DNA of 64,000 bases from Ferrovibrio sp. MS7. GTDB lineage: Bacteria; Pseudomonadota; Alphaproteobacteria; Ferrovibrionales; Ferrovibrionaceae. Both the position numbers and the translations under genes were made by a program. This document shows positions 16,660 through 32,425 of this stretch, in pieces. The stretch's first letter is position 1; the number at the start of each line of letters is the position of its first letter. The stretch is taken from the NCBI RefSeq assembly GCF_038404985.1, contig NZ_JBBKBA010000002.1:868001-932000 (forward strand), in the 5' to 3' direction. The notes under the pieces were generated by a model, which was not told the DNA's origin, did not search any database, and saw only the letters and a list, made by a program, of their open reading frames with translations.

Positions 16660-17757
16660 TCAGCCGGTGACTGTCTGTACGATCTGCGCCACGGTCTTAC
16701 CCTCCAGGCCCAGCACATGCAGGTTGCGGCCCTCGGCGTAGAAATCACGATTGGTGAGCAGGCCGGCGAAGCGGATCACTGTATCGGCAGCCGGGGTCGG
16801 CACACCGGCGAGCGGGCCGAGGCAGGCGATGGGCACCAGGCCGCAGGCCACATCCTGCACCAGATAGCGATGCTCCAGCGATTTTGGCGCCGGGGCATAG
16901 CGGAAATGGGTACGACCCATCTCCTGCATGTCTTCCTGCAGGGTCGGGTTATGCAACTGGTAGGTCAGTTCCAGCCAATCGCGCACATTCATGATCTTGG
17001 CGCCATAGGCCGCTGCCACGGCTACGCGCTCGGCATCCAGCTTGGCGATCAGGTCGCACACCGTCGGTACCATGTTGGCGGTGTAGAAATTATAGCTCTC
17101 GTCATTTTCGACGCGACTGACATTGGTGACCATGCCGGCGACATGGAAGATCGCGCCGAGATCGACAAAGCCGGTATGCAGCAGGTTCGGCGCCGTCACC
17201 ATGTTCGGGAAGGCAATGCCAACGCGCTCAAGCACTGCGGCCGAGCGCGCTGCCGGCATCGCCACCAGGTTCCAGCGCGTCTTGATCGTGGTCATGATGA
17301 CCCGGTCTGGCGCCTTCACATGCAGCATGTAGGGATAGGAATCCATCTCGGCAATATCGATCTTTGCCTTGCAGCCAAGGCGATCAAGTGCAGCGCGGAA
17401 CAGCAATGCGCCACCGAAATGGCCCTGGCAGAGCACAATGGTCTGGCCATCTTCGAGCAGCGGCGCCAGGTTACGCGCCACCACCGGATGATCGGTGCCG
17501 TAGGTGCTGACGATCAGCACCGCAGCGCCCTTTACAGCCGCCGCGAGATCCGTGGTTGCCATCTCCACTGGTGCGAAGGTGATATCGCGGCCTTCGACAT
17601 GCAGGCCGCCAGCGGCACGCATGCCCGCCACCTGGGCATCGTCGATATCATGGATGCGCAGGCGAAAGCCGGTGATGCCGAGTTGCGCCGCCAGACCCTT
17701 GCCGCCCATGCCGGCGCCAATGATCGTGATGATGTCCTGTTTGGTGATCGAAGCCAT
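16660..17757 (-). CDS. Opine (octopine/nopaline) dehydrogenase family protein, copy 2
   Basis: A 365-residue NAD(P)-dependent dehydrogenase with an N-terminal Rossmann loop IIGAGMGGKGLAAQLG and a C-terminal helical domain typical of the octopine/nopaline dehydrogenase family (reductive amination of keto acids or the reverse oxidation of opine-like secondary amines). It is a tandem paralogue of the next gene upstream; both share IHDIDDAQVAGMRAAGGLH, IAEMDSYPYMLHVKAPDR or near copies, and HFRYAPAPKSL/HYRYAPAPKSL. AGGACG lies upstream of the ATG. Within this operon the enzyme probably oxidises the imported compound. Ketopantoate-reductase-like chemistry is an alternative. Confidence 0.82.
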   Translation of the reverse strand: MASITKQDIITIIGAGMGGKGLAAQLGITGFRLRIHDIDDAQVAGMRAAGGLHVEGRDITFAPVEMATTDLAAAVKGAAVLIVSTYGTDHPVVARNLAPLLEDGQTIVLCQGHFGGALLFRAALDRLGCKAKIDIAEMDSYPYMLHVKAPDRVIMTTIKTRWNLVAMPAARSAAVLERVGIAFPNMVTAPNLLHTGFVDLGAIFHVAGMVTNVSRVENDESYNFYTANMVPTVCDLIAKLDAERVAVAAAYGAKIMNVRDWLELTYQLHNPTLQEDMQEMGRTHFRYAPAPKSLEHRYLVQDVACGLVPIACLGPLAGVPTPAADTVIRFAGLLTNRDFYAEGRNLHVLGLEGKTVAQIVQTVTG

Positions 17758-17784
17758 GTTTACGTCCTGCTCTGGGGGCTTTTC

Positions 17785-18879
17785 TCAATTGCCGGTGATG
17801 GTGGCGTTGATCTGTGCGATGTTCTTTCCGGAAAGGCCGAGCGCGGCGAGATTGCGCCCTTCCTCATGGAAATTACGCCCGGTAAGCGCATTGGCGATCT
17901 GGATCACCGAGTCGATCACCGGTGTTGCCAGGCCGGCCACGCGGGCCAGGGCCGCCAGCGGCACCAAACCGCAGCCGACATCCTGCACCAGATAGCGATG
18001 GGTCAGTGATTTCGGCGCGGGCGCATAGCGATAATGTGTCACCGCCATTTTCTGCAGCGCTTCATGCAATGTCATGTCGCGGAAGGAATACGTAACCGCC
18101 AGCCAGGTGGGGATATCCACCGTCTTGATGCCGAAGGCCTGTGCCACTGCCAGCCGTTCCCGGTCCATGGCGAGCAGCAGGTTGCACACGCTGGGTACCA
18201 TGTTATTGGCGTAGAAATTGTAAGTCTGATCGCCTTCGACCATGCCGACATTGGTGATCATGCCGCCGACATGCAGGATGCCACCAAGATCGACCAATGC
18301 CGTCTCGAGCATATTGCCGGCGGCCTGCAAGCCTGGAAAAGCGTGAACAATGCGCGCCAGGCAGGCTTCGGTACGCGAAGCCGGTAAGGCTGAAAGATGC
18401 CACTTCTCCTTGATGGTGGTCATGATGACGCGGTCAGGCGCCTTCACATGCAGCATGTAAGGATAAGCATCCATCTCGGCGATATCGACCATGGCCTTGC
18501 AGCCGGCGGCATCCAGTGCCGAACGGAAAACCAGCGGGCCGCAGAAATGGCCCTGGCAGAGCACGATCAACTGGCCATCTTCGAGCAACGGTGCAAGTTG
18601 CCGCGCCAGCGCAGGATGATCGTTGCCATAGGTACTGACGATCAGCACGCCGGCGCCCTTGACGGCCGCGGCGAGATCCGTGGTGGCCATCTCCACCGGC
18701 GCAAAAGGAATATCACGACCTTCGATATGCAGGCCGCCGGCGGCACGCATGCCTGCCACCTGGGCATCGTCAATGTCGTGGATGCGCAGCCGACAACCAT
18801 CGATGCCCAATTGGGCCACCAGCCCCTTGCCGCCCATGCCGGCGCCGATGATCGTCCAGATTTCCTTACCGTTGCTCAC
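17785..18879 (-). CDS. Opine (octopine/nopaline) dehydrogenase family protein, copy 1
   Basis: A 364-residue paralogue of the downstream gene, with the nucleotide loop TIIGAGMGGKGLVAQLG and the same C-terminal pattern. The start chosen is GTG at 18879: GGAGGAG lies 7 bases upstream, whereas a TTG at 18894 would put that ribosome site inside the gene. It follows the permease gene by 18 bp and precedes its paralogue by 27 bp. The two copies differ throughout, so the duplication is not recent. The pair could form a heteromer or act on two related substrates, matching the two binding proteins. Confidence 0.82.
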   Translation of the reverse strand: MSNGKEIWTIIGAGMGGKGLVAQLGIDGCRLRIHDIDDAQVAGMRAAGGLHIEGRDIPFAPVEMATTDLAAAVKGAGVLIVSTYGNDHPALARQLAPLLEDGQLIVLCQGHFCGPLVFRSALDAAGCKAMVDIAEMDAYPYMLHVKAPDRVIMTTIKEKWHLSALPASRTEACLARIVHAFPGLQAAGNMLETALVDLGGILHVGGMITNVGMVEGDQTYNFYANNMVPSVCNLLLAMDRERLAVAQAFGIKTVDIPTWLAVTYSFRDMTLHEALQKMAVTHYRYAPAPKSLTHRYLVQDVGCGLVPLAALARVAGLATPVIDSVIQIANALTGRNFHEEGRNLAALGLSGKNIAQINATITGN

Positions 18880-18897
18880 GCCCCACTCCTCCAAACC

Positions 18898-20877: not shown

Positions 20878-21564
20878 TCACGGCACCACCGGGAAGCGAG
20901 ACAGGAATTCGAGAATGCGGGCATTGGCCCGCACAACATGATCGCGCAGCAGGTTGGCGGCCTGGCGGCCATTGCGTGCCAGCAGGGCATCGACGATGTC
21001 GCCATGCTCGGCCGCCAGCAGCGCATTATTGCGCCCCTTCACCGATTGCAGGCTCACCAGCACCAGCCGCTCGGCCTGCTCCACCAATTCGCGCACCGTC
21101 GCCGCCATCCGTGCCGAACCCGAGGCATCCGCGATGGCGCAGTGAAAATGCCGGTTATAGGCCGTGAAGGCAGAACTATCCCCGCTGAAGCTGCGATAGG
21201 CCTCCAGCGCGGCCAGTTCTTCGTCGCTAGCCTGCCGGGCCGCTTCGCTGGCACAGATCGGCTCCAGGGTTTCGCGGAAACGACAGAGATCGCGGGCATC
21301 GGACAGCGAGATCGGATTGACGCGATAACCCTGGCGCGGCAGCACGGTCACCAGCCGCTCGCGCTCCAGCCGCAACAAGGCCTCCCGCACCGGCTGCTTG
21401 CTCACCTCGTAGCGTGCCGCCAGTTCCTGCTCGCGCAGCGGCTCACCTGGGGCGAGCTGACAGGAGAGCACCTCGTAACGTAGGCGGGCATAAACCGTCT
21501 CTCGCAGCAAAGAGCCTTGCTGTGAAATATCTTGGTTGTCACTCGCTACTACTTTTAGCGACAT
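20878..21564 (-). CDS. GntR/FadR (FCD) family transcriptional regulator
   Basis: A 228-residue regulator: N-terminal winged helix (residues about 20-85, with EQELAARYEVSKQPVREALLRLE as recognition region) and a C-terminal all-helical FCD ligand domain (YNRHFHCAIADASG, then AAEHGDIVDALLARN) with the His and Asp/Asn ligands typical of metal-dependent FCD domains. It heads the operon of two binding proteins, permease, two opine dehydrogenases and ATPase, and probably represses it until the ligand is present. It resembles the FadR protein at 27392-28048. ATG at 21564 has no strong ribosome site. Confidence 0.92.
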   Translation of the reverse strand: MSLKVVASDNQDISQQGSLLRETVYARLRYEVLSCQLAPGEPLREQELAARYEVSKQPVREALLRLERERLVTVLPRQGYRVNPISLSDARDLCRFRETLEPICASEAARQASDEELAALEAYRSFSGDSSAFTAYNRHFHCAIADASGSARMAATVRELVEQAERLVLVSLQSVKGRNNALLAAEHGDIVDALLARNGRQAANLLRDHVVRANARILEFLSRFPVVP

Positions 21565-21630: not shown

Positions 21631-21660
21631 TGAAATATCAGAGACAGACTATTGAGTCAA
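21631..21660 (-). promoter_or_regulatory. Promoter and candidate FadR operator upstream of the NitT/opine operon
   Basis: Read on the minus strand, TTGACT (21655-21660) is a good -35 element and GATATT or TATTTC about 15-17 bases downstream a plausible -10. The -10 zone is covered by TGATATTTCA (21631-21640), one base away from the palindromic core TGATATATCA found twice at the other FadR gene. A further copy with one more mismatch (AGATATTTCA on the minus strand, 21533-21542) lies just inside the regulator gene. Suggests autorepression. Confidence 0.5.
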
Positions 21661-21873: not shown

Positions 21874-22653
21874 TCAGAACGCCAGGAAGCCACGCACCGT
21901 CTCAATGAAAACGTCGGGCATTTCCAGCGGCGGGCAGTGGCCGCATTGCGCAATCTCGGTGAGCCAGGCGCCGGGTATGCCGGCCGCAAGCTGCCGGCAC
22001 AGAACTGGCGGCGTGGCGGCGTCAAGTTCGCCCACCACCACCAGGGTGGCGTTGCGGATGCTATCAAGCTGGGGCACCAGATCGCAGGCAATCAGCGACT
22101 GGCAGGCAGCAATGAAGGCCTGCGGATCGATACCAAGCAACACCTGGCGGCGTTCCTCAAAGGCTTCGGGATGCTTTGCCAGATAGGCATCGTGAAACAC
22201 CCGGCGCGCGGCGATATCGACAATGCCGCCAAGACCCTCGCTGCCGACCTTCTCTGCCATGACGCGAAACGCCACCTTGCCCTGCTCCGGAAAGCCCGCC
22301 GCCACGTCGCTGAGCACCATCTTGCCGAAGCGCGCGCCGTGGCGCAGCGCCATCGCAACCGCCACGGTGCCGCCAAAGCCATTGCCCATGACGGCGCAAT
22401 CCTGGCCAAGGCCGAAATCGTCGAACACGGTGGCGACGCGATCAGCATAGCCCTCGATGCCCGCCGGGATCGGGGCCGACCCATGGAAACCAGGCAGGTT
22501 GACCAGGGTGACGCGGAACTTCTCGGTCAGCTTCGGTAATACCGGATCAAAGGCGGTGCGATCCGTGAGCAGCGAATGCAGGATCAACAGGTCCGGGCCA
22601 GTGCCGGTCTGCACAGCAGTGAGTTTGCCATCGCGGCTGGTAAGCTTTTGCAT
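21874..22653 (-). CDS. Alpha/beta-hydrolase fold protein lacking the nucleophile
   Basis: A 259-residue alpha/beta-hydrolase. The acid (D211 in VVGELDAATPP) and histidine (H239 in CGHCPPLE) of the catalytic triad are present, but the nucleophile elbow reads G90-N-G-F-G-G, so Gly92 stands where Ser, Cys or Asp is expected. It may not be a hydrolase; lyase or binding functions are possible. ATG at 22653 is chosen because GAGGAAG lies 8 bases upstream. It is the last gene of the Liv-type importer operon, 13 bp after livF, and probably acts on the imported compound or its product. Confidence 0.85.
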   Translation of the reverse strand: MQKLTSRDGKLTAVQTGTGPDLLILHSLLTDRTAFDPVLPKLTEKFRVTLVNLPGFHGSAPIPAGIEGYADRVATVFDDFGLGQDCAVMGNGFGGTVAVAMALRHGARFGKMVLSDVAAGFPEQGKVAFRVMAEKVGSEGLGGIVDIAARRVFHDAYLAKHPEAFEERRQVLLGIDPQAFIAACQSLIACDLVPQLDSIRNATLVVVGELDAATPPVLCRQLAAGIPGAWLTEIAQCGHCPPLEMPDVFIETVRGFLAF

Positions 22654-22666
22654 AACGATTACTTCC

Positions 22667-23383
22667 TCAATGTACGCCGAGATTGGCGGCAATCAGGTTG
22701 GGATCCGCGGCAAGGGCCTCCGGTGTGCCATCGAAAACCACGCGACCGGTGTTGAGAATCGCCACATGGTCGGCCAGTGCAAGCGCGAAGCGGGTATTCT
22801 GTTCCACCAGGATGATCGATAGACCCTCGGTCTTCAGCCGACGCAGGATGGCGCCTACCTCCTCGACGATCTGCGGTGCCAGGCCTTCGGATGGTTCGTC
22901 AAACAGCACCACGCGCGGATTGCCCATCAGCGCACGGGCAATGGCAAGCATCTGCTGCTCGCCGCCTGACATTGAACCAGCCGCCTGGCTCTTGCGTTCG
23001 CGCAAGCGTGGAAACAGGTCGAATACCCGCGCCACATCCCATGCCGCCTTGCCCTGTGTGCCAGCCCGTTCCGCGACACGCAGGTTTTCCATCACGCTGA
23101 GGCTACGGAAGATGCGCCTGCCTTGCGGCACCAGGCCGACACCGCGTCGCGCCACCGCCTCCGGCGGCAGGCCGCGCAGGCTCTCGCCGAACAGCAATAC
23201 CTCGCCATCCCGAGGTGGCGTGAAACCGATGATGGAATGCATTGTTGTCGTCTTGCCGGCGCCATTGCGCCCCAGCAATGCCAGCACTTCGCCGGACTGC
23301 AGGCTCAACGACACGTCATGCAGCGCGCGGCTATCGGCATAATAGGTGTTAATGGCTTGGAGCCGCAGCGCATCAGTCGGCAA
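22667..23383 (-). CDS. livF: Branched-chain amino acid-type ABC transporter ATPase LivF
   Basis: A 238-residue ATP-binding subunit with Walker A GRNGAGKTT, signature MSGGEQQMLAIARAL and Walker B VVLFDEPSEGL, the LivF pattern. It overlaps the upstream livG by 11 bp. First transport operon of Liv type in the window; its ligand is not necessarily a branched-chain amino acid, since such systems also carry aromatic acids, amides and other compounds. Confidence 0.93.
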   Translation of the reverse strand: MPTDALRLQAINTYYADSRALHDVSLSLQSGEVLALLGRNGAGKTTTMHSIIGFTPPRDGEVLLFGESLRGLPPEAVARRGVGLVPQGRRIFRSLSVMENLRVAERAGTQGKAAWDVARVFDLFPRLRERKSQAAGSMSGGEQQMLAIARALMGNPRVVLFDEPSEGLAPQIVEEVGAILRRLKTEGLSIILVEQNTRFALALADHVAILNTGRVVFDGTPEALAADPNLIAANLGVH

Positions 23384-24116
23384 AATACACCTCCCGCACC
23401 CGCGGATGCGCGGTGATGCTGGCGCGATCGCCCTCAGCGATCACCTGGCCGTAATACATCACGGTGATGGACCGGGCCAAGGACAGCGCGATATCCATGT
23501 CATGTTCGATCAGTACCACGGTAATGTCGGCGGGAATGTCGCGCACCAGCGCCTGCACCTCGCTACGCTCCTCGCGTGACAAGCCGGCCAATGGTTCATC
23601 AAGCAGCAGCAATCGGGGTTGCTGCGCCAGTGCCAGGGCAATCTCCAGGCGACGCTTCTCGCCATAAGCGGTTTCCGACAATTTACGGTCGGCCAGGCGA
23701 TGCAGGCCGACGCGCTCCAACGCCGCCTCGGCGCGGGCCGCGAACTCACTGCGCCGGCGCATGCTGGCAATCGGATTGAGCCGCAGCGGCGAAAGGCCCA
23801 ACAGCGAGAGATACACATTCTCGCGCAGTGTGTTGTTGGGAAACAGCGTCAGAATCTGGTAGGTGCGGGCGAGGCCGCGATGGGCGCAGCGATACGGCGC
23901 GGCACCGGTAATATCTTCACCGAACAGCTCAACCCGGCCAGATGTCGGTTTGATATCGCCCGTGATCAGGTTGAACAATGTGGTCTTGCCGGCGCCATTC
24001 GGACCCAGCAGCAACCGGCGGTCACCGACCGGAATCGTCAGGTCGACGCCATCCACGGCCGGCAGCCCGCCGAAACGCTTGCGCAGACCGGTGATCTTGA
24101 GGGCGGGCGCGGTCAT
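23373..24116 (-). CDS. livG: Branched-chain amino acid-type ABC transporter ATPase LivG
   Basis: A 247-residue ATPase with Walker A GPNGAGKTT, the LivG-specific signature variant TAYGEKRRLEIALAL and Walker B LLLLDEPLAGLS. The ATG at 24116 overlaps the livM stop by 4 bp (ATGA), which fixes the start although the frame remains open upstream. Works as a heterodimer with the LivF encoded next. Confidence 0.93.
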   Translation of the reverse strand: MTAPALKITGLRKRFGGLPAVDGVDLTIPVGDRRLLLGPNGAGKTTLFNLITGDIKPTSGRVELFGEDITGAAPYRCAHRGLARTYQILTLFPNNTLRENVYLSLLGLSPLRLNPIASMRRRSEFAARAEAALERVGLHRLADRKLSETAYGEKRRLEIALALAQQPRLLLLDEPLAGLSREERSEVQALVRDIPADITVVLIEHDMDIALSLARSITVMYYGQVIAEGDRASITAHPRVREVYFAD

Positions 24117-25060
24117 GGCGCATTCCTGGCGCCGGGCAACAGGCGTCGGCGCAGGCGATCCAGCCCCGGCACCACGCCTTCCGGCATGAAGATGACGATC
24201 ACAACAAACACAATACCCAGCAGCATTACCCAGCGGGTGACATAGGCGCTGACCACCATTTTCAGCACCACAACGATGAAGGCGCCGACCAGCGGGCCGA
24301 ACAACGTGCCGGCACCGCCGGCAATCACCATCAGCAGGGTTTCCGCCGAGGCCGGCAGGCCGAGTGCGTGCGGGCTGATATACTGGTGGTAATAGACGAA
24401 CACCACGCCGGCGACTGCCGCCCAGAAACCGGCAAAGACAAAGGCCAGCCACTGCACCAGCCAGACGTTATGGCCAAGCATGCGCATGCGGCGCGGTTGG
24501 TCGCGGCTGCCGACCAGGCTGGTACCAAGGCCAGAGCGCGCGAACACGGCAATGCAGCCGATGGCGAGCAGGAAGACGATCGTGGTGAAAAGATAGAAGG
24601 CAACCGGATTGGTGAGCGCGATGCCGAACGGCATCGGGCGCTGCAGGCCCGGCAGGCCATTGTCGCCGCCCGTGACAGTCACCCAGCGATAGGCAACACC
24701 CCACAAAGTCTGACCAAGCGCCAGGGTGATCATCAGGAAGGCGATACCGGTGGCACGCAAAGCCATCAGGCCGAATAGCGCAGCCATCAGCGTGGTGCCG
24801 CCAAGCGCCAGCAGCACCGCCGGCAGATGGCCAAAGCCGCCTTGTGTGTTGAGCCATGCCACCAGATAGGCTGCGGTGCCGAGATAGGCGGCATGGCCGA
24901 GCGAGGTGAGACCGGCATAGCCGACCAGGATATTGAGGCTGGAGGCGAAAATCGCCGCGATCAGAATCTGGCTGGCGACATTGATGTAAAAGGCCTGACC
25001 GATCATCAACGGCACAGCCAATGCCACGGCACCAAGCAGCCAGGGCAATACTCGCATCAT
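24113..25060 (-). CDS. livM: Liv-type ABC transporter permease LivM
   Basis: A 315-residue membrane protein. The segments ILIAAIFASSLNILVGYAG and TSLGHAAYLGTAAYL are the LivM hallmark, and the loop VIAGGAGTLFGPLVGAF near residues 250-270 is the ATPase-contact region. Many hydrophobic helices are evident. ATG overlaps the stop of livH by 4 bp. Ends with a basic tail (RLRRRLLPGARN). Confidence 0.93.
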   Translation of the reverse strand: MMRVLPWLLGAVALAVPLMIGQAFYINVASQILIAAIFASSLNILVGYAGLTSLGHAAYLGTAAYLVAWLNTQGGFGHLPAVLLALGGTTLMAALFGLMALRATGIAFLMITLALGQTLWGVAYRWVTVTGGDNGLPGLQRPMPFGIALTNPVAFYLFTTIVFLLAIGCIAVFARSGLGTSLVGSRDQPRRMRMLGHNVWLVQWLAFVFAGFWAAVAGVVFVYYHQYISPHALGLPASAETLLMVIAGGAGTLFGPLVGAFIVVVLKMVVSAYVTRWVMLLGIVFVVIVIFMPEGVVPGLDRLRRRLLPGARNAP

Positions 25061-25920
25061 TGCTTGGCTCCGAACAGGCCGCTCGGACGCAGCATCAATA
25101 TCAGGATCATCGGCAGGAACAGGATCATGTAGGCAAGGCCGGGCAGCAATGCCTGGCCGAACGTGTAGATGAAGCCGGTGATGAAACTGCCGACAAAGGC
25201 GCCCGCGAGGCTGCCGATGCCGCCGAGGATGACCACGACCAGGGCCAGCGGCAGCATCTCGCCATCGAGACCGGGATAAACCGACAGGATCGGGCCACCA
25301 AGCACGCCGCCCATGCCGGCAAGGCCGCAGCCGAGGCAGAAGACAATGGTGAACAGACGCGGCACCGGAATGCCGACAGCACGCGCCATCTCCATATCAT
25401 CGACACCAGCGCGCACCATGGCGCCGAGCCGCGTGCGCTCAAGCAGCAGCCACAGCAGGAACGCTACCAGCAAGGACAACACGACGACGAAGATGCGGTA
25501 CCCCGGAAAGACAAAATTGCCGAGCCGCACCGGCTGCGACAGGTAGGGTGGCACCGGCAATTGCATCGGATCGCCGGTCCACAGCATCAGACAGAGATCG
25601 GCGATGACGAAGGAGAGACCAAGCGTCACCAGCACCTGGGCCAGCGTGCGACTGGCCAGCCGCCGCAGGATGAAGCGCTCAACCAGGCCGCCCACCACCG
25701 CGATGGTGGCACCGCCGGCAAGAATAGCGAGCGGAAAGCCGAGGCCGGCGCGCAAGGCCGAGAGGCCTACATAGGCGCCGAGCATGAAATAGGCGCCATG
25801 CGTCAGATTGGCGATGCGCATGAGGCCGAAAATCAGCGAGAAGCCAGAAGAGAGCAGGAAAAGCAGCCCGCCCAAGGCAAGGGCATTCAGGCTCTGGATC
25901 AGCCAGAAAGCTAGCGGCAT
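25057..25920 (-). CDS. livH: Liv-type ABC transporter permease LivH
   Basis: A 287-residue membrane protein with the LivH landmarks ALALGGLLFLLSSGFSLIFG at the N terminus, MRIANLTHGAYFMLGAY, and VVILGGIGSLAGAFVGSF near residues 220-240. The ATG at 25920 is chosen because the family begins at this point; the frame is open further upstream without conserved sequence. It lies 46 bp after the binding protein gene. Confidence 0.92.
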   Translation of the reverse strand: MPLAFWLIQSLNALALGGLLFLLSSGFSLIFGLMRIANLTHGAYFMLGAYVGLSALRAGLGFPLAILAGGATIAVVGGLVERFILRRLASRTLAQVLVTLGLSFVIADLCLMLWTGDPMQLPVPPYLSQPVRLGNFVFPGYRIFVVVLSLLVAFLLWLLLERTRLGAMVRAGVDDMEMARAVGIPVPRLFTIVFCLGCGLAGMGGVLGGPILSVYPGLDGEMLPLALVVVILGGIGSLAGAFVGSFITGFIYTFGQALLPGLAYMILFLPMILILMLRPSGLFGAKQ

Positions 25921-25966
25921 GGGCGGGCCTACTTCACAGCAACAGGTTACGATTGACGGACGATGA

Positions 25967-27211
25967 TCACTCGAGATTCCTCGCCAGCGGCCATTCACGG
26001 GAATAGACCGGGTTGGCCAGGAAGGCCGCCGGATCATAGCTCCAGAATTGCGTGGTGCCGGTATAGGTGTGGATCACCTTGTTGGTCAGGCCGTTCGCAC
26101 CCTTCTCCACCTTGCGGATATAGGTGTTGAACACCGGGTTGCCATACTGGTCGATCTTCACCGGGCCCAGCGGGGTTTCCGGCAGATCGAGGCTGCGCAG
26201 CGCCTTCATGAAGGCATCCTTGTCCTCGATCTTGCCCTGCACTTTTTCCATGGCCTTTTCCAGGAAGATGCCGGCGAGATAGGCACCCATGGTGTAGTAA
26301 CCCGGATCGGCCTTGTATTCGGCACGCACGGCCGAGACGAACTTGGCATTCGCCGGGCTTTCCAGTGCGGCACTGTACCAGCCGGCGGAAATCACCCCGA
26401 GCGCTTCATCGCCCATGTTCTTCAGGATGCCCTCATCCACCGTGGTCATGTGACCCAGCACCGGGATGCGGCCCTTCATGCCATATTCATTATACTGCTT
26501 GAGGAACCGCAGGCCGTTGGCACCGGCGAAGCCGGCGAATACCGCGTCCACCTTGGTGTTGATCTGGGCAATATAGGAGCCGTAGTCGGCCACATTCAGC
26601 GGCGGCCACAGCTTCTGCACCACCTTGCCGCCATTTTCCTCGAACACGCGCTGGAAGCCGGCCGACATTTCATGGCCGAAGGCAAAATCGTCGGCGATGA
26701 TGGCAATGCGCTTGTAGCCCAGGGTCTTGGCCGCATAATCAGCCAGGGCATGCACCGGCTGCGCCGAAGTGGACACCGCGCGCACGAACCAGGGATTGAG
26801 CCGGCGCTGGGTCAGATCCTCTGCCGCCGCTGACGGCGAGATGATCGGCACCTGTGCCTGCTGGATATAGTCATTGATCGCCAGCGCCTCGAAAGCGGCG
26901 AGCGGACCGATCACTACATGCACCTTGTTGCGCTCCACCAGTTCCTGGGTCTTGGAGCGGGTATTGGCGGGAACGCCGGCGGTATCGGCAACGATCAGCT
27001 CGATCTGCCGACCGGCCAAACGGCCATTGCGCTCCTTGAGGAACAGCTTGATGCCCTCTTCCATCTGGCGACCACCGGCCGCGAGCGCGCCGGAATTCAC
27101 CGTGAGGAAGCCGACGCGGACCGCTTCCTGCGCCTGCACGGCGCCGGCGAAAGCAGTCGCGCCAAACAGGGTCGCTGCCGCAAGGGCCGCGAATTGGCGA
27201 CGATGTAACAT
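25967..27211 (-). CDS. Liv-type ABC transporter substrate-binding protein
   Basis: A 414-residue periplasmic type-I binding protein. The signal sequence begins MLHRRQFAALAAATLFG (twin-Arg-like RRQF followed by a hydrophobic core) and ends AVQAQE near residue 29. The mature part has VRVGFLTVNSGALAAGGRQ and VHVVIGPLAAFEALA, typical of LivK relatives. GGAGGAAAT directly precedes the ATG at 27211, which decides the start over one 18 bp upstream. It is the first gene of the Liv operon; the promoter overlaps a palindrome bound presumably by the divergent FadR regulator. Confidence 0.92.
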   Translation of the reverse strand: MLHRRQFAALAAATLFGATAFAGAVQAQEAVRVGFLTVNSGALAAGGRQMEEGIKLFLKERNGRLAGRQIELIVADTAGVPANTRSKTQELVERNKVHVVIGPLAAFEALAINDYIQQAQVPIISPSAAAEDLTQRRLNPWFVRAVSTSAQPVHALADYAAKTLGYKRIAIIADDFAFGHEMSAGFQRVFEENGGKVVQKLWPPLNVADYGSYIAQINTKVDAVFAGFAGANGLRFLKQYNEYGMKGRIPVLGHMTTVDEGILKNMGDEALGVISAGWYSAALESPANAKFVSAVRAEYKADPGYYTMGAYLAGIFLEKAMEKVQGKIEDKDAFMKALRSLDLPETPLGPVKIDQYGNPVFNTYIRKVEKGANGLTNKVIHTYTGTTQFWSYDPAAFLANPVYSREWPLARNLE

Positions 27212-27235
27212 ATTTCCTCCCAATTTCATTGTGGC

Positions 27236-27267
27236 ATTGATATATCAATAAATTGAATGATGGGCAA
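27236..27267 (-). promoter_or_regulatory. Promoter of the Liv operon with overlapping palindromic operator
   Basis: On the minus strand a -35 TTGCCC (27262-27267) and a -10 TATATC (27239-27244) are separated by 17 bp, placing the transcription start about 20 bp before the binding protein ATG. The -10 lies within the perfect 14-bp palindrome ATTGATATATCAAT (27236-27249), a likely repressor operator. A second, imperfect repeat, TTATC-AGAT-GATAA, sits near 27280-27293. Confidence 0.6.
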
Positions 27268-27357
27268 GGCGCTTTCTATTATCAGATGATAAATTGTTGC
27301 TTTTTCAGGAAATACCCTCTGATTTACCGCAGCGATAGAGAGACTCGAGTTTTTGGC

Positions 27358-27385
27358 TTGATCGGTGATATATCACAGCTATAAT
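27358..27385 (+). promoter_or_regulatory. FadR gene promoter with operator between -35 and -10
   Basis: TTGATC (27358-27363), a 16-bp spacer and a consensus TATAAT (27380-27385) form a strong-looking promoter. The spacer contains the perfect palindrome GTGATATATCAC (27365-27376), sharing the core TGATATATCA with the operator of the divergent Liv promoter. The predicted transcription start, about 7 bp after the -10, coincides with the ATG at 27392, so the mRNA could be leaderless. Confidence 0.65.
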
Positions 27386-27391
27386 GGCCAT

Positions 27392-28048
27392 ATGAATATT
27401 GAGACCACACACCTCCGCCGCGAGGAGATATATCAGCGTCTGCGCGCAGAGATGTTATCCTGCGCCCTGGCGCCGGGCGCCAATCTGCATGAAGCCGAAC
27501 TGGCGGAGCGTTTCGCGATCAGCAAATCGCCGATCCGTGACGCCTTGATGCGCCTGGAAGCCGAGCGCCTGGTGCTGGTGGCGCCGCGCAAGGGCTATCG
27601 CGTGGCGCCGATTTCGGTGTCGGATGCGCGCGACCTGTTCGGCCTGCGAATGGTGCTTGAGCAGGCGGCGGCGCCGGATGTGGCGGCCAATGCTTCGGAA
27701 GCCGATCTGAAGGCGCTGGACCGCTTCCGCAGCCTGGCGGCCTGGGGCAGCGACGATTTCGTTACCTATAACCGTGAATTCCATTGCGCCGTGGTCGAGT
27801 TGTGCAGCAACCGGCGCATCGCCGAGACCGGGCGATCCGTGATCGAGCAGTTCGACCGCCTGGTGGTGATGAGCATCTCCACCCTGGCCGAACGCAATAC
27901 CGAAGGCCTGATCGCCGAACATGCCGCCATCATCGATGCCTTGCAGGCACGCGATGGTCGCCTGGCGGCGCGGCTGCTGCAGAAGCATATCGAATTCGGC
28001 GTCAAACGCGTGTTGAAGGCGCTGGAACAGGCCGCTGTCATTCCCTGA
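27392..28048 (+). CDS. GntR/FadR (FCD) family transcriptional regulator
   Basis: A 218-residue regulator with an N-terminal winged helix (EAELAERFAISKSPIRDALMRLEAERL as recognition region) and a C-terminal FCD domain (YNREFHCAVVELCSN, AEHAAIIDALQARDG). It resembles the FadR protein at 20878-21564. ATG at 27392 is chosen over a GTG at 27365 because the latter lies within the promoter palindrome. Likely controls both the divergent Liv operon and the downstream molybdenum hydroxylase genes through the two TGATATATCA palindromes. The CoxG-like gene follows after 26 bp. Confidence 0.92.
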   Translation: MNIETTHLRREEIYQRLRAEMLSCALAPGANLHEAELAERFAISKSPIRDALMRLEAERLVLVAPRKGYRVAPISVSDARDLFGLRMVLEQAAAPDVAANASEADLKALDRFRSLAAWGSDDFVTYNREFHCAVVELCSNRRIAETGRSVIEQFDRLVVMSISTLAERNTEGLIAEHAAIIDALQARDGRLAARLLQKHIEFGVKRVLKALEQAAVIP

Positions 28049-28074: not shown

Positions 28075-28716
28075 ATGCAATTCGATGTCTCTTTCGTTGT
28101 GCCAATGCCACCCGAGCAGGCTTGGCCGCTGTTGCTTGATGTGCGCCGCATCGCGCCCTGCCTGCCTGGTGCTGAACTCACCGATGTGCTGGGCGACAAC
28201 CGCTACAAGGGCCGCGCCAGGGTGAAGGTCGGCCCGATCGAACTGAGCTTCGCCGGCGAAGCCGAGCTGCGGGATATTGACAATCAGGCCCATACCGCAT
28301 CAGTGGTGGCGCGCGGCGCTGAGGGCAAAGGCCGTGGCAATGCCGCTGCCACCGTGCGTTTCCAGCTCAGCCCCGATGCCGCCGGTACCAAGGTTGTCGC
28401 CATAACCGATCTCCAACTGGTCGGTGCCGTGGCGCAATATGGTCGCGGTGCCGGCCTGATCAAGGAAATCGCCAATCAGCTCACTCAGCAATTCGCCCGC
28501 AATCTGCAGGCGTCGATTGCGGCGGAACAATCCGCCGCCCCGGCCCCGGCGGCAGAATCCGCTCCTGCTTCTGCAACTATGCCGAACGCTGCCGCAGCAC
28601 CGCCGCCGCCCCCTGCCGCAATCATGCCGCCGCCACCTGTAAAGGCCGTTTCAGGACTCAGCCTGGTCTGGGCCGCTCTGCGCGCCATGGTGGCCCGCTG
28701 GTTCGGTCGCGGCTGA
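28075..28716 (+). CDS. CoxG-like SRPBCC family protein
   Basis: A 213-residue protein: residues 1 to about 145 form a CoxG/SRPBCC (START-like) domain (FVVPMPPEQAWPLLLDV, PCLPGAELTDVLGD, VKVGPIELSFAGEAEL), followed by an Ala/Pro-rich low-complexity linker and a C-terminal hydrophobic segment (SLVWAALRAMVARWF) that could anchor it to the membrane. CoxG recruits CO dehydrogenase to the membrane in carboxidotrophs, and relatives accompany many non-CO molybdenum hydroxylases. First structural gene of the Cox-like operon, 21 bp before the FAD subunit gene. Confidence 0.85.
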   Translation: MQFDVSFVVPMPPEQAWPLLLDVRRIAPCLPGAELTDVLGDNRYKGRARVKVGPIELSFAGEAELRDIDNQAHTASVVARGAEGKGRGNAAATVRFQLSPDAAGTKVVAITDLQLVGAVAQYGRGAGLIKEIANQLTQQFARNLQASIAAEQSAAPAPAAESAPASATMPNAAAAPPPPPAAIMPPPPVKAVSGLSLVWAALRAMVARWFGRG

Positions 28717-28737
28717 TAGAAGAGAGTTCAGCGCGCC

Positions 28738-29613
28738 ATGAAGCCAGCCCCCTTCGCCTACCACGATCCGCGCAGCCTGGACGATCTCGTCGGCCTGCTC
28801 GGGCGCTTGGAAAACAGCAAGCTGCTGGCAGGCGGCCAGTCGCTGATGCCGATGCTGAACATGCGCTACGTGATCGCCGATCACGTGATCGATCTCAATC
28901 GCCTGCCGGAGCTTGCCGGTACACGTTATGCCGATGGCATGCTGAGCATTGGCGCCATGACGCGCCAGCGCAGCCTGCAGCGCGATCCCCTGGTGCAGCA
29001 GCATTGCCCGGTGCTGGCCGAAGCACTCGACTGGGTGGGGCATATTCAGACCCGCAGCCGCGGCACCATCGGCGGCAGCTTGTGCCATCTCGATCCAGCA
29101 GCCGAGCAGCCCGGTATCGTGGCGCTCTATGATGGCGAGTTGACCATTCTGGGCCCCGGTGGCGAGCGCCAGACGGCGATGCAGGAATGGGGCCTTGGCT
29201 TCATGATGCCGAACCTTGCGCCTGACGAAGTGCTGACCCGCATTGCCATGAAGCCCTGGAATGAACCGCATGGCTATGGCTTCGTGGAATTTGCCCGCCG
29301 GCATGGCGATTTCGCCATTGTTGGCGCCGGCGTGCTGCTGGCGATCGATGCGCAGGATGTGATCACGCGCGCTGCAATCGCGCTGGTCGGTGTCGATATC
29401 CAGCCGATGCGGCTGCGTGCGGTGGAAACCGCCCTGCTCGGCCAGAAGGCCAATGCCGAAAGTTTCACGGCGGCGGCGGCAGAAGCCAGCAAGATCGATG
29501 CCTTGTCCGATGCCCATATCACCAGCGGCTACCGCCAGAAGCTGGCCGGGGTGATGACCCGCCGTGCCCTGGAACAGGCCGCCAAGCGCGCCCGGGAGGC
29601 CCGCCATGTCTGA
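28738..29613 (+). CDS. FAD-binding subunit of molybdenum hydroxylase (CoxM/XdhB type)
   Basis: A 291-residue flavoprotein subunit. FAD motifs are visible as LLAGGQSLMPMLNMR (about 32-46) and the TIGGSLCHLDPAAE segment near 110-125. It lacks the cysteine-rich insert found in the fused enzyme at 941-4333. It overlaps the following [2Fe-2S] gene by 8 bp. Part of a three-subunit enzyme encoded in the order M-S-L. Confidence 0.93.
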   Translation: MKPAPFAYHDPRSLDDLVGLLGRLENSKLLAGGQSLMPMLNMRYVIADHVIDLNRLPELAGTRYADGMLSIGAMTRQRSLQRDPLVQQHCPVLAEALDWVGHIQTRSRGTIGGSLCHLDPAAEQPGIVALYDGELTILGPGGERQTAMQEWGLGFMMPNLAPDEVLTRIAMKPWNEPHGYGFVEFARRHGDFAIVGAGVLLAIDAQDVITRAAIALVGVDIQPMRLRAVETALLGQKANAESFTAAAAEASKIDALSDAHITSGYRQKLAGVMTRRALEQAAKRAREARHV

Positions 29614-30100
29614 CGCCATCACCCCTCGCCGCATCCGCGTCACCATCAACGGCACCAGCCATGAGCGCAATGTCGAGCCGCGCCTCAGCCTGGCTGATTT
29701 CCTGCGCCACGAATTGTTGCTGACCGGCACCCATGTCGGCTGCGAGCATGGCGTCTGCGGTGCCTGCAGCGTCATTGTTGACGGTGTGCCGGCGCGCGCC
29801 TGCCTGATGCTGGCGGTGCAGGCCGATGGCGCCGAAGTCGAGACCGTGGAAGGCCTGGCAGCGGCAGATGGCAGCCTGCACCCGCTGCAGGAAGCCTTCC
29901 GCGAGCATCATGGCCTGCAATGCGGCTTCTGCACACCGGGCATGCTGATGACCCTGAAGGCACTGCTGCAGGATCAGCCGGATGCCGATGAAGCAGCGGT
30001 ACGCGAAGCGATCTCCGGCAATATCTGCCGCTGCACCGGCTATCAGGGCATTGTCGATGCCGCCCTGGATGCAGCAGCCCAGCTACGCGGAAGGGCTTGA
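29606..30100 (+). CDS. (2Fe-2S)-binding subunit of molybdenum hydroxylase (CoxS type)
   Basis: A 164-residue protein with both [2Fe-2S] sites intact: C46, C51, C54 and C66 in the N-terminal ferredoxin-like part (GCEHGVCGAC), and C106, C109, C141 and C143 in the C-terminal helical part (QCGFCTPGM, ICRCTGYQG). The ATG at 29606 overlaps the end of the CoxM-type gene, and the stop is 3 bp before the large subunit. Confidence 0.94.
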   Translation: MSDAITPRRIRVTINGTSHERNVEPRLSLADFLRHELLLTGTHVGCEHGVCGACSVIVDGVPARACLMLAVQADGAEVETVEGLAAADGSLHPLQEAFREHHGLQCGFCTPGMLMTLKALLQDQPDADEAAVREAISGNICRCTGYQGIVDAALDAAAQLRGRA

Positions 30101-30103
30101 GCC

Positions 30104-32425
30104 ATGGGTGTGCGCTATTTCGGCAGCAAGGTTCACCGCCTGGAAGATCCGCGCCTGCTCACGGGCAAGGGTCGCTATGTCGATGACATTCATCCGCCGC
30201 ATTGCCTGCAGGCAGCCTTCGTGCGCTCGATGCATGCCCATGCCTTGATCAAGGGCGTCGACACGGCAGCAGCACGGGCCCTGCCCGGCATTGCCGCGAT
30301 CTACACCATGGCGGATTTCGCCGGACTGGCGCAGGGTCCTTTGCCGCAAACCCTGCCGGCGCCAATCCTGAAACAATCACACACCTATCACCCGCTGGCG
30401 CAAGGCGAGGTCTGCCATGCCGGCGAGGCCATTGCCATCGTGCTGGCTGAAACCCGCGCCCAGGCCGAGGATGCCGCCGCGCTGGTGGTGGTGGATTACG
30501 AGCCATTGCCGGCAGTGGCTGATTGCCGCGCTGCGATCGGCCCCGATGCGGTGAAGGTGCATCAGGATGCACCGGACAATGTCGTGGCGGTGATGCGCGG
30601 GGCGTTTGGCGATGCAGCGGCGGTATTTGCCGCCGCACCGCATGTTTTTGCTGAGCGCATCGAGATGCATCGTGGCGGTTGCCATTCCATGGAATGCCGT
30701 GGCGTGATCGCCAGCAGCGATGCGCTGAGCGGACAGATGACGCTCTACACCTCTTCGCAATCGCCCTACCTGGTGCGCCGCTTCCTTGCCGCCTATCTTG
30801 GCCGCGAGGAAAGCGAATTACGCGTCATTGCGCCGGATGTCGGCGGCGGCTTTGGCCCCAAGGCTGCCTTCTATGCCGAAGAGGCAGCGCTGATGCTGGC
30901 CGCGTTGAAAATCGGGCGGCCGGTGAAATGGATCGAGGACCGTCGCGAGCATTTTGTCGCTACGACACAGCAGCGCGACCAATATTGGGATGTGGAGGTG
31001 GCAGCCGACGCCGATGGCCGCCTGCTCGCTGTGCGCGGCACCTGCCTGCATGATAACGGCGCCTATGTGCCTTATGGCCTGGTGCTGCCCGCCACCACCC
31101 TTGGCTCCTTCCCTGGTCCCTATGCGTTGCAGGCGCTCGATCTGACCCTGAACGCGGTCTACACCAACATGGTGCCGAACACACCGGTGCGCGGTGCCGG
31201 CCGACCGAATGCCTGCTTCGTGCTGGAACGCCTGGCCGACCGCGTGGCGCGCGAATTGAAACTGCCGCCCGAGGAAGTACGCCGGCGCAGCTTCGTGCGC
31301 AGCGAACAGATGCCCTATGTCACCGGCATGAAGGCGCGCGATGGCTCGCCGGTGCAGTATGACAGCGGCGATTTTCATGCCACGCTCGACCTGGCGCTGG
31401 AAAAAATCGACGCGGCCGGCTTCCCCGAACGCCAGGCCAAGGCGCGCGCCGAAGGCCGCTATCTGGGCCTTGGCATTGCCAGTTGCGTCGAGGATACCGG
31501 GCTTGCCCCCTTTGAAGGCGCCACCGTGCGCGTGCTGCCCACTGGCCGCGTGCAGGTGGAAACCGGCGCCGCCAGCCAGGGCCAGGGCCATGCCACCGTG
31601 CTGGCCCAGATCTGCGCCGACATGCTGGGGGTGCCGCTGGAACATGTCAGTGTCGAGCAGGCCGATACCGGCAAATTCCCGCTCGGCATCGGCACCATAG
31701 CCAGCCGCGTTGCCGTCACTGCCGGTTCATCGGTGCATCTCGCTTCCGTGCAGGTGCGCGACAAGGCGTTGCGCGTTGCCGCCGATATGCTGGAGGCAGC
31801 CGAGGCTGATCTCGAGATCGTGGCCGGGATGGTGAAGGTGAAAGGCGTGCCGCGGCCTTCGGTGCCGCTCGGCGCGATTGCCACCAAGCTGAATGGCATG
31901 CCAGGCATCCCGACGCATAAGGGCATGGACCCGGGCCTGAGTGCCACGGCCTATTTCGACGCCAAGCAGCTCACCTTCTCCAATGGCGCCAATGTCTGCG
32001 AAGTGGAAGTGGATATTGAAACCGGTGCAGTGCGCATCCTGCGCTATGTGGTGGCGCATGATTGCGGCCGCCTGATCAATCCGCGCCTGGTGGACGGCCA
32101 GATCATCGGCGGCGTGGTGCATGGCATCGGCAACGCGCTATTCGAGCGCATGGTCTATGACGAGAGCGGCCAGCCGCTGACCACCAATTACGGCGAATAC
32201 CTGCTGCCGATCGCCACCGAGATGCCACGCATCGAAATTCATCATCTCGAAACACCGGCTACCAACAACCCGCTGGGCATCAAGGGCGCTGGCGAGGGCG
32301 GTACGATTCCGGCGGCCGCTGCCGTGATCGCCGCTGTCGAGAATGCCCTGGCTCCATTCGATGCCAGGATCGCCAAGCATCCCCTGGCGCCCGAGGAAAT
32401 TCTGGGCCTGGTGGAACGCGCTTAA
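30104..32425 (+). CDS. Molybdopterin-binding large subunit of molybdenum hydroxylase (CoxL-like, not CO dehydrogenase)
   Basis: A 773-residue catalytic subunit. Landmarks are GSKVHRLEDPRLLTGKGRYV at the N terminus, GGGFGPK at 247-253 for the molybdopterin, and the catalytic Glu E731 in GIKGAGEGG. The active-site loop is VRGAGR (362-367), lacking the cysteine of the AYXCSFR motif that defines true (form I) CO dehydrogenase, so CO oxidation is unlikely; this resembles the so-called form II group, whose substrates are largely unknown. The substrate may be the compound imported by the divergent Liv system. It ends the operon; a hairpin follows. Confidence 0.92.
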   Translation: MGVRYFGSKVHRLEDPRLLTGKGRYVDDIHPPHCLQAAFVRSMHAHALIKGVDTAAARALPGIAAIYTMADFAGLAQGPLPQTLPAPILKQSHTYHPLAQGEVCHAGEAIAIVLAETRAQAEDAAALVVVDYEPLPAVADCRAAIGPDAVKVHQDAPDNVVAVMRGAFGDAAAVFAAAPHVFAERIEMHRGGCHSMECRGVIASSDALSGQMTLYTSSQSPYLVRRFLAAYLGREESELRVIAPDVGGGFGPKAAFYAEEAALMLAALKIGRPVKWIEDRREHFVATTQQRDQYWDVEVAADADGRLLAVRGTCLHDNGAYVPYGLVLPATTLGSFPGPYALQALDLTLNAVYTNMVPNTPVRGAGRPNACFVLERLADRVARELKLPPEEVRRRSFVRSEQMPYVTGMKARDGSPVQYDSGDFHATLDLALEKIDAAGFPERQAKARAEGRYLGLGIASCVEDTGLAPFEGATVRVLPTGRVQVETGAASQGQGHATVLAQICADMLGVPLEHVSVEQADTGKFPLGIGTIASRVAVTAGSSVHLASVQVRDKALRVAADMLEAAEADLEIVAGMVKVKGVPRPSVPLGAIATKLNGMPGIPTHKGMDPGLSATAYFDAKQLTFSNGANVCEVEVDIETGAVRILRYVVAHDCGRLINPRLVDGQIIGGVVHGIGNALFERMVYDESGQPLTTNYGEYLLPIATEMPRIEIHHLETPATNNPLGIKGAGEGGTIPAAAAVIAAVENALAPFDARIAKHPLAPEEILGLVERA

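Follow-up and report, generated by a model that had tools for sequence, protein, structure and literature searches.

In the survey by Suvorova, Korostelev, and Gelfand (2015; PMC4494728), the FadR subfamily of GntR regulators is defined by its C-terminal domain, and a TKGT/ACMA operator is common in it without being universal (NanR and BioR deviate). Among the divergons with separate double sites described there, a FadR-subfamily regulator gene belongs to one of two divergent operons, and each of two palindromes lies near its own operon. Here, we report a locus with this known architecture and a non-canonical core: TGAT/ATCA (TGAT-N2-ATCA) takes the place of TKGT/ACMA (TKGT-N2/3-ACMA). One operator lies inside the spacer between the -35 and -10 hexamers, whereas the word "promoter" does not occur in the main text of that survey.

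The DNA analyzed (the window) is a 64,000-nt stretch of Ferrovibrio sp. MS7 (GCF_038404985.1; contig NZ_JBBKBA010000002.1, positions 868,001 to 932,000, forward strand); sites were also counted in the whole genome (4,576,383 bases; 4.58 Mb). FadR1 (27392..28048, plus strand; 218 amino acids) is a GntR-family, FadR-subfamily (FCD) regulator (Pfam GntR, 2.2e-16; FCD, 1.6e-20), and FadR2 (20878..21564, minus strand) is an FCD regulator by Pfam and a paralogue of FadR1 (50% identity). Both carry an N-terminal GntR winged helix-turn-helix (HTH; PF00392; 59.7 and 69.1 bits, cutoff 27) and a C-terminal FCD domain (PF07729; 74.2 and 73.2 bits, cutoff 24.3). The word TGATATWTCA is a palindrome with the 2-nt spacing of the consensus operator and has A in place of its G; membership of the FadR subfamily stands despite this deviation, because it is the C-terminal domain that defines the subfamily.

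Divergent from FadR1 lies a minus-strand operon whose first gene encodes a Liv-type substrate-binding protein (25967..27211; Peripla_BP_6, 9.7e-71), starting at 27211 with GGGAGG ahead of it and with an alternative ATG at 27229. The remaining genes (21874..25951, minus strand; boundaries approximate) encode two permeases and two ATPases, named by open reading frame (ORF) reading, and an alpha/beta hydrolase, named by Pfam. CoxG-, CoxM-, CoxS-, and CoxL-like genes for a molybdenum hydroxylase lie 3' of FadR1 (28075..32425, plus strand; CoxG and CoxL named by Pfam, CoxM and CoxS by ORF reading). The CoxL-like protein encoded here lacks AYxCSFR, a motif of CO dehydrogenase. Judging by these genes, the pathway substrate may be aromatic or heterocyclic. 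Downstream of FadR2, two neighboring and similar dehydrogenase-like proteins are encoded amid NMT1-type ABC transporter genes (16660..18894), the second of which (17785..18894) matches an octopine/nopaline dehydrogenase domain.

The core TGATATATCA occurs at 27238-27247 within O1 (ATTGATATATCAAT, 27236..27249), a candidate operator in the Liv promoter region, and at 27366-27375 within O2 (GTGATATATCAC, 27365..27376), a candidate operator in the spacer of the FadR1 promoter. The related TGATATTTCA (21631..21640, minus strand) is a candidate operator overlapping the probable -10 of FadR2. The original prediction, made from the letters of the window, had placed all three palindromes at these positions and had suggested a genome-wide search for TGATATWTCA. 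That search returned five exact places, three of them within this cluster (O1, O2, and the FadR2 site) and the others at C4:69722 and C2:154577, compared with 0 matches genome-wide for the motif read backwards. With up to one mismatch allowed, TGATATWTCA had 10 matches in the window versus 2.69 expected (highest of 100 shuffles, 9), and TGATATATCA had 29 genome-wide matches per strand versus 13 for the backwards control; because the latter excess is small, only the exact core is selective.

The cluster is present in two other genomes of the same genus (G003 and G007; FadR1 92% identical), in which the regulator gene is again divergent from another operon with a site near each start, and all three sites persist. 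In an alignment of 27229-27391 across the three genomes, 37 of 38 element columns (the two operators plus the two FadR1 hexamers) were identical, versus 51 of 129 other columns; G003 and G007 are mutually close, so this footprint is nearly a two-way comparison. The single changed element column is the outer G of GTGATATATCAC, which G003 and G007 read as ATGATATATCAC, with the core TGATATATCA conserved. The FadR2 site is kept in both as CTGATATTTCACAAAG, together with TTGACT. A FadR2-internal AGATATTTCA near the gene start (21523-21532) reads AGATATTTCT in both.

A possible third operator, O3 (AGATATATCA, 27426..27435), lies inside FadR1 codons 12-15. It is kept in G003 and G007 while the adjoining codons change, and Ile13 remains ATA, a rare codon (it accounts for 10 of the 334 Ile codons counted across 17 genes of the window); across the FadR1 gene, the codon was unchanged at 139 and 136 of 196 conserved residues in the two relatives. 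The case for O3 as an operator within the FadR1 reading frame is suggestive only.

Homologues were sought by protein search in 116 relatives, in 397 genomes from across the phylum, in two orders represented by 297 and 300 genomes, and in a plasmid collection (107 records match FadR1; three were taken in). Regulators with at least 172 bits made up a group of 18 genes (FadR1 and FadR2 of three genomes, L087-L091, and L096-L102), and more distant FCD regulators (at most 117 bits) made up 48 controls (53 loci less L063, L068, L071, L073, and L084, which fell under the BLAST limit). Within the interval -250 to +60 relative to the estimated start of each gene, exact TGATATWTCA was found in 15 of the 18 group genes (expected, 0.01 of 18) and a form with at most one mismatch in 17 (expected, 0.6 of 18), versus 0 of the 48 controls for both (expected, 0.06 and 0.7); the shuffles for group and controls were first-order resamplings and not exact dinucleotide shuffles, and the mean G+C of the scanned regions was 0.52 for the group and 0.60 for the controls. 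L087 and L091 have one-mismatch sites only, and the one miss is L101, where a contig end leaves 106 bases with no site in them. The rows are not independent: six belong to this genus, three to a second genus (g251), and two to Methylobacterium. Together they span eight numbered genera as well as plasmids of Methylobacterium and Sinorhizobium, the last two possibly coinciding with numbered ones. A scan of the 25 FCD loci of the MS7 genome for TGATATATCA with at most one mismatch found sites at FadR1 and FadR2 only.

Paired sites also precede relatives (two TGATATATCA at L100, two TGATATTTCA at L102, and TGATATTTCA plus TGAAATATCA at L098), and at L088, L089, and L096 the site directly follows TTGACG, in the spacer, as O2 does. 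The claim that both divergent promoters carry operators is supported by genome rarity, three-genome footprinting, and this recurrence before related regulators. Directly observed are the sites themselves, how rare and how conserved they are, and their association with the regulator group.

Parts of the gene set recur as well. A relative of the Liv binding protein (65% identity) adjoins the regulator of L116, which has divergent Liv genes, and one Liv permease has relatives beside homologous regulators. The L113 regulator neighbors relatives of CoxM (51% identity), CoxS (70%), CoxL (65%), and the hydrolase (66%); a CoxG match was absent from this locus, which has the other Cox-like genes. Alpha/beta hydrolase relatives lie near the regulator at L113, L114 (where the match ends with the contig), L116, L117, L096, and L098, and none was found in the L115 locus.

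In 387 genomes of the class, a search for ATTGATATATCAAT gave 15 sites distributed over 12 genomes, and the backwards control gave 3, each in a different genome; 11 of the 15 loci are AT rich (GC of at most 0.39), and three high-GC loci besides our own were examined. The site at L048 has a flagellar gene alongside, and that at L039 has a dehydrogenase and a CitE-like gene, with no GntR gene within its 3 kb. At L047 (805-1659), in G409, another alphaproteobacterium of high GC, a gene read as GntR-like (805-1497) is preceded by a pair of TGATATATCA copies spaced 147 bp apart, the nearer copy 5 bases before the ATG.

The promoter scan (27150-27450) identified a predicted FadR1 promoter with a -35 hexamer TTGATC (27358..27363, plus strand; identical in three genomes) and a -10 hexamer TATAAT (27380..27385, plus strand; kept in three genomes). 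O2 fills its spacer as had been proposed, GTGATATATCAC at 27365-27376 lying inside the 16 nt (27364-27379) that separate TTGATC from TATAAT. The full layout is TTGATC-16-TATAAT-6-ATG, with the ATG at 27392 and without a Shine-Dalgarno sequence; the TATAAT, the 6-nt gap, the ATG, and the absence of a Shine-Dalgarno sequence are conserved in the three genomes. So short a distance between TATAAT and the ATG predicts a leaderless FadR1 mRNA, with its start at the ATG or at most 2 bases from it. The FadR1 promoter also contains a GTG in frame with the gene (27365; ATG in the relatives), whose use as a start would need another transcript. The scan also gave a second plus-strand candidate, TTGAAT-18-TATTAT (27253-27282), which would yield a leader of approximately 100 nt and is not kept in G003 or G007. 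Shine-Dalgarno-like sequences were read ahead of the probable regulator start at L089 and L102, so the leaderless layout does not hold throughout the group. In this class, mRNAs without a leader are no rarity: they make up 7% in Methylorubrum extorquens DM4 (PMC9320726), and in Zymomonas mobilis they account for 119 of 2,675 start-gene pairs (PMC7566282).

The other two promoters are less clear. By reading, the putative Liv -10 (TATATC, 17 nt behind TTGCCC) and the putative FadR2 -10 (TATTTC, 17 nt behind TTGACT) are both poor hexamer matches. O1 overlaps the probable Liv -10, as had been predicted; the scan of 27150-27450 lists no Liv promoter.

Taken as a whole, the locus is very probably explained as an autoregulated FadR-subfamily (GntR/FCD) divergon in which each operator covers its own promoter; the divergon is real, conserved, and probably autorepressing. 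From the sequence, we infer binding, repression (not activation), an inducer, and leaderless translation, as follows. FadR1 would be a one-component repressor whose dimer binds TGATATATCA, with O2 occupying the FadR1 promoter spacer and O1 overlapping the divergent Liv promoter; because each operator covers a promoter, a bound dimer would keep RNA polymerase off when inducer is lacking. The pathway substrate or an intermediate would release both dimers, and this release would jointly switch on uptake, through the Liv transporter and hydrolase, and breakdown, through the molybdenum hydroxylase. Transcription of FadR1 would start at or near its ATG, the mRNA being translated leaderless, and FadR2 would likewise control its own promoter via TGATATTTCA.

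Recognition residues were compared with those of the known family. The survey (Suvorova 2015; PMC4494728) reports two correlations for site positions 6/14: G/C is preferred when HTH position 28 (E. coli Arg35) is Arg and avoided when HTH position 40 (Thr47) is Pro. FadR1 has Ala/Pro and FadR2 Gln/Pro at positions 28/40, and the combination of non-Arg28 and Pro40 agrees weakly with A/T at site positions 6/14 when TGAT-AT-ATCA is set against TKGT-N2-ACMA, a register of our own setting. This line is weak because 15 of the 25 FCD proteins of the genome share both traits, the other 13 of them without an adjoining site; Arg35 loss plus Pro47 was accordingly retained as no more than a weak line toward explaining the core, and the standing of the autoregulated divergon rests on the sites and not on the residues. 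Relative to E. coli FadR, the GntR HTH with Glu34 and Arg49 is kept, whereas Arg35 is replaced by Ala or Gln, Arg45 by Lys, Thr46 by Ser or Gln, and Thr47 by Pro, and the operator is another one; the E. coli residues used in this comparison, ten in all, match those given in Table 1 of PMC4494728. Lys45 as a site requirement was rejected, since SRxP homologues have the same sites.

Recognition of similar sites by both FadR proteins, as the original prediction had it, gained indirect support from their 50% identity and from homologues that mostly have TGATATATCA or TGATATTTCA. The further step to cross-regulation, with FadR2 also reading O1 and O2 and FadR1 reading the FadR2 site, is conceivable but on balance unlikely. 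In E. coli numbering, the two proteins have Ser44, Lys45, Pro47, and Arg49 in common, and a single base distinguishes their sites, but residues 46 (Ser/Gln) and 35 (Ala/Gln) differ, and Gln46 goes with TGATATTTCA while Ser46 goes mostly with TGATATATCA. All seven Gln46 rows with an exact site have TGATATTTCA (either strand); the Ser46 rows have TGATATATCA at FadR1 of three genomes, L099, and L100, and otherwise TGATATATTA at L091, TGATATTTCA at L102, and no site at the contig-end-cut L101 (these rows leave out FadR2 of G003 and G007). A strict residue code (Ser46 with TGATATATCA, Gln46 with TGATATTTCA) was rejected because L102, the one clear exception, breaks it; the rule is leaky, and shared ancestry may explain it. 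The shared core is itself weak evidence for cross-talk, because the decamer apparently serves a third regulator as well.

Joint action of O1 and O2, with O3, through DNA looping or cooperative binding appears improbable. The O1-O2 spacing is 128 bp here and 129 bp in G003 and G007 despite diverged DNA between the sites, and the O2-O3 spacing is 60 bp in all three genomes; by arithmetic, however, neither is a whole number of 10.5-bp turns, and spacings elsewhere differ (108 bp at L100, 155 at L102, and 67 at L098). Moreover, in the survey, 71 of 100 FadR-subfamily double-site divergons with the regulator gene have separate sites and 29 are common-site (Suvorova 2015; PMC4494728). An origin of the palindromes as AT-rich words arising by chance, or as nothing more than -10-like sequence, is very hard to credit. 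O1 and the FadR2 site do overlap probable -10 regions, and the fifth genomic site, TGAAATATCA at C2:154577-154586 (L002:5578-5587), upstream of flgE (a flagellar-hook-like gene), has no counterpart in G417, a genome of the same species, so isolated sites do arise by chance; against this reading stand the rarity, the footprinting, and the contrast of 17/18 with 0/48. The flgE site was rejected as a conserved operator, being absent in G417 and in G008 (the start was found in three of ten loci compared), and is probably a chance occurrence.

The remaining exact site, TGATATATCA at C4:69722-69731 (L001:5723-5732), lies upstream of a dehydrogenase gene and a fumarylacetoacetate-hydrolase-like gene (by reading). 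It is kept in G417, G003, G007, and G006, the last of which lacks a close homologue of either FadR1 or FadR2 (best match, 33%). In five further genomes of the genus (G008, G004, G001, G005, and G002), the site is absent directly upstream of the dehydrogenase gene, which there follows another gene. In the same five, approximately 2 kb from the dehydrogenase gene, are orthologues of the FCD protein C1:1881032-1881832, the only one of the 25 to share the Lys of FadR1 and FadR2 at the position of E. coli FadR Arg45. Upstream of the gene group, these genomes have TGATATATCA (3/5) or one-mismatch forms, mostly flanked by AAC and AGATG, and a one-mismatch site adjoins the orthologue in 4/5; no such site was found beside this regulator in G000, G003, G006, or G007. 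The C4:69722 site is probably the operator of the unlinked regulator C1:1881032-1881832, and it is likely, on these comparisons, that a third FCD regulator uses the same decamer with other flanks. More tentatively, and with the balance somewhat against it, FadR1, FadR2, and C1:1881032-1881832 may each use TGATATWTCA and be kept apart by the central base and the flanks, with the in-frame O3 held by a rare Ile codon. The proposed distinguishing forms are ATTGATATATCAAT or TGATATATCAC for FadR1, CTGATATTTCACAAAG for FadR2, and AACTGATATATCAGATGGG for the third regulator.

By protein sequence, the best three of seven PDB matches of FadR1 (7xp0, 7u5q, and 3c7j; E values, 4.2e-21, 6.5e-20, and 3.5e-16) are GntR-family, nearly whole-length relatives. 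Literature searches for TGATATATCA and four longer forms gave no GntR regulator among the matches listed, and the matches listed for GATATATC with GntR (a Brucella effector and Toxoplasma gene silencing) were off topic. Nothing was found for GntR, FCD, and operator with ATATATCA, and among the matches listed for Ferrovibrio with transcriptional regulator, nothing concerned this system.

The type of switch is ordinary, even textbook, and the operator word is unusual. A candidate operator is thereby assigned to a group of FadR-subfamily regulators for which the literature searches found no description, and whose members occur within a single phylum but in more than one class, across eight to ten genera. 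As this operator is linked to a recurring set of uptake and breakdown genes, the regulon becomes predictable elsewhere. Because a paralogue and a third regulator have almost identical words, the locus offers a small system for studying how related repressors avoid cross-talk; three regulators on one decamer, if true, would be a natural test case for the insulation of paralogous repressors.
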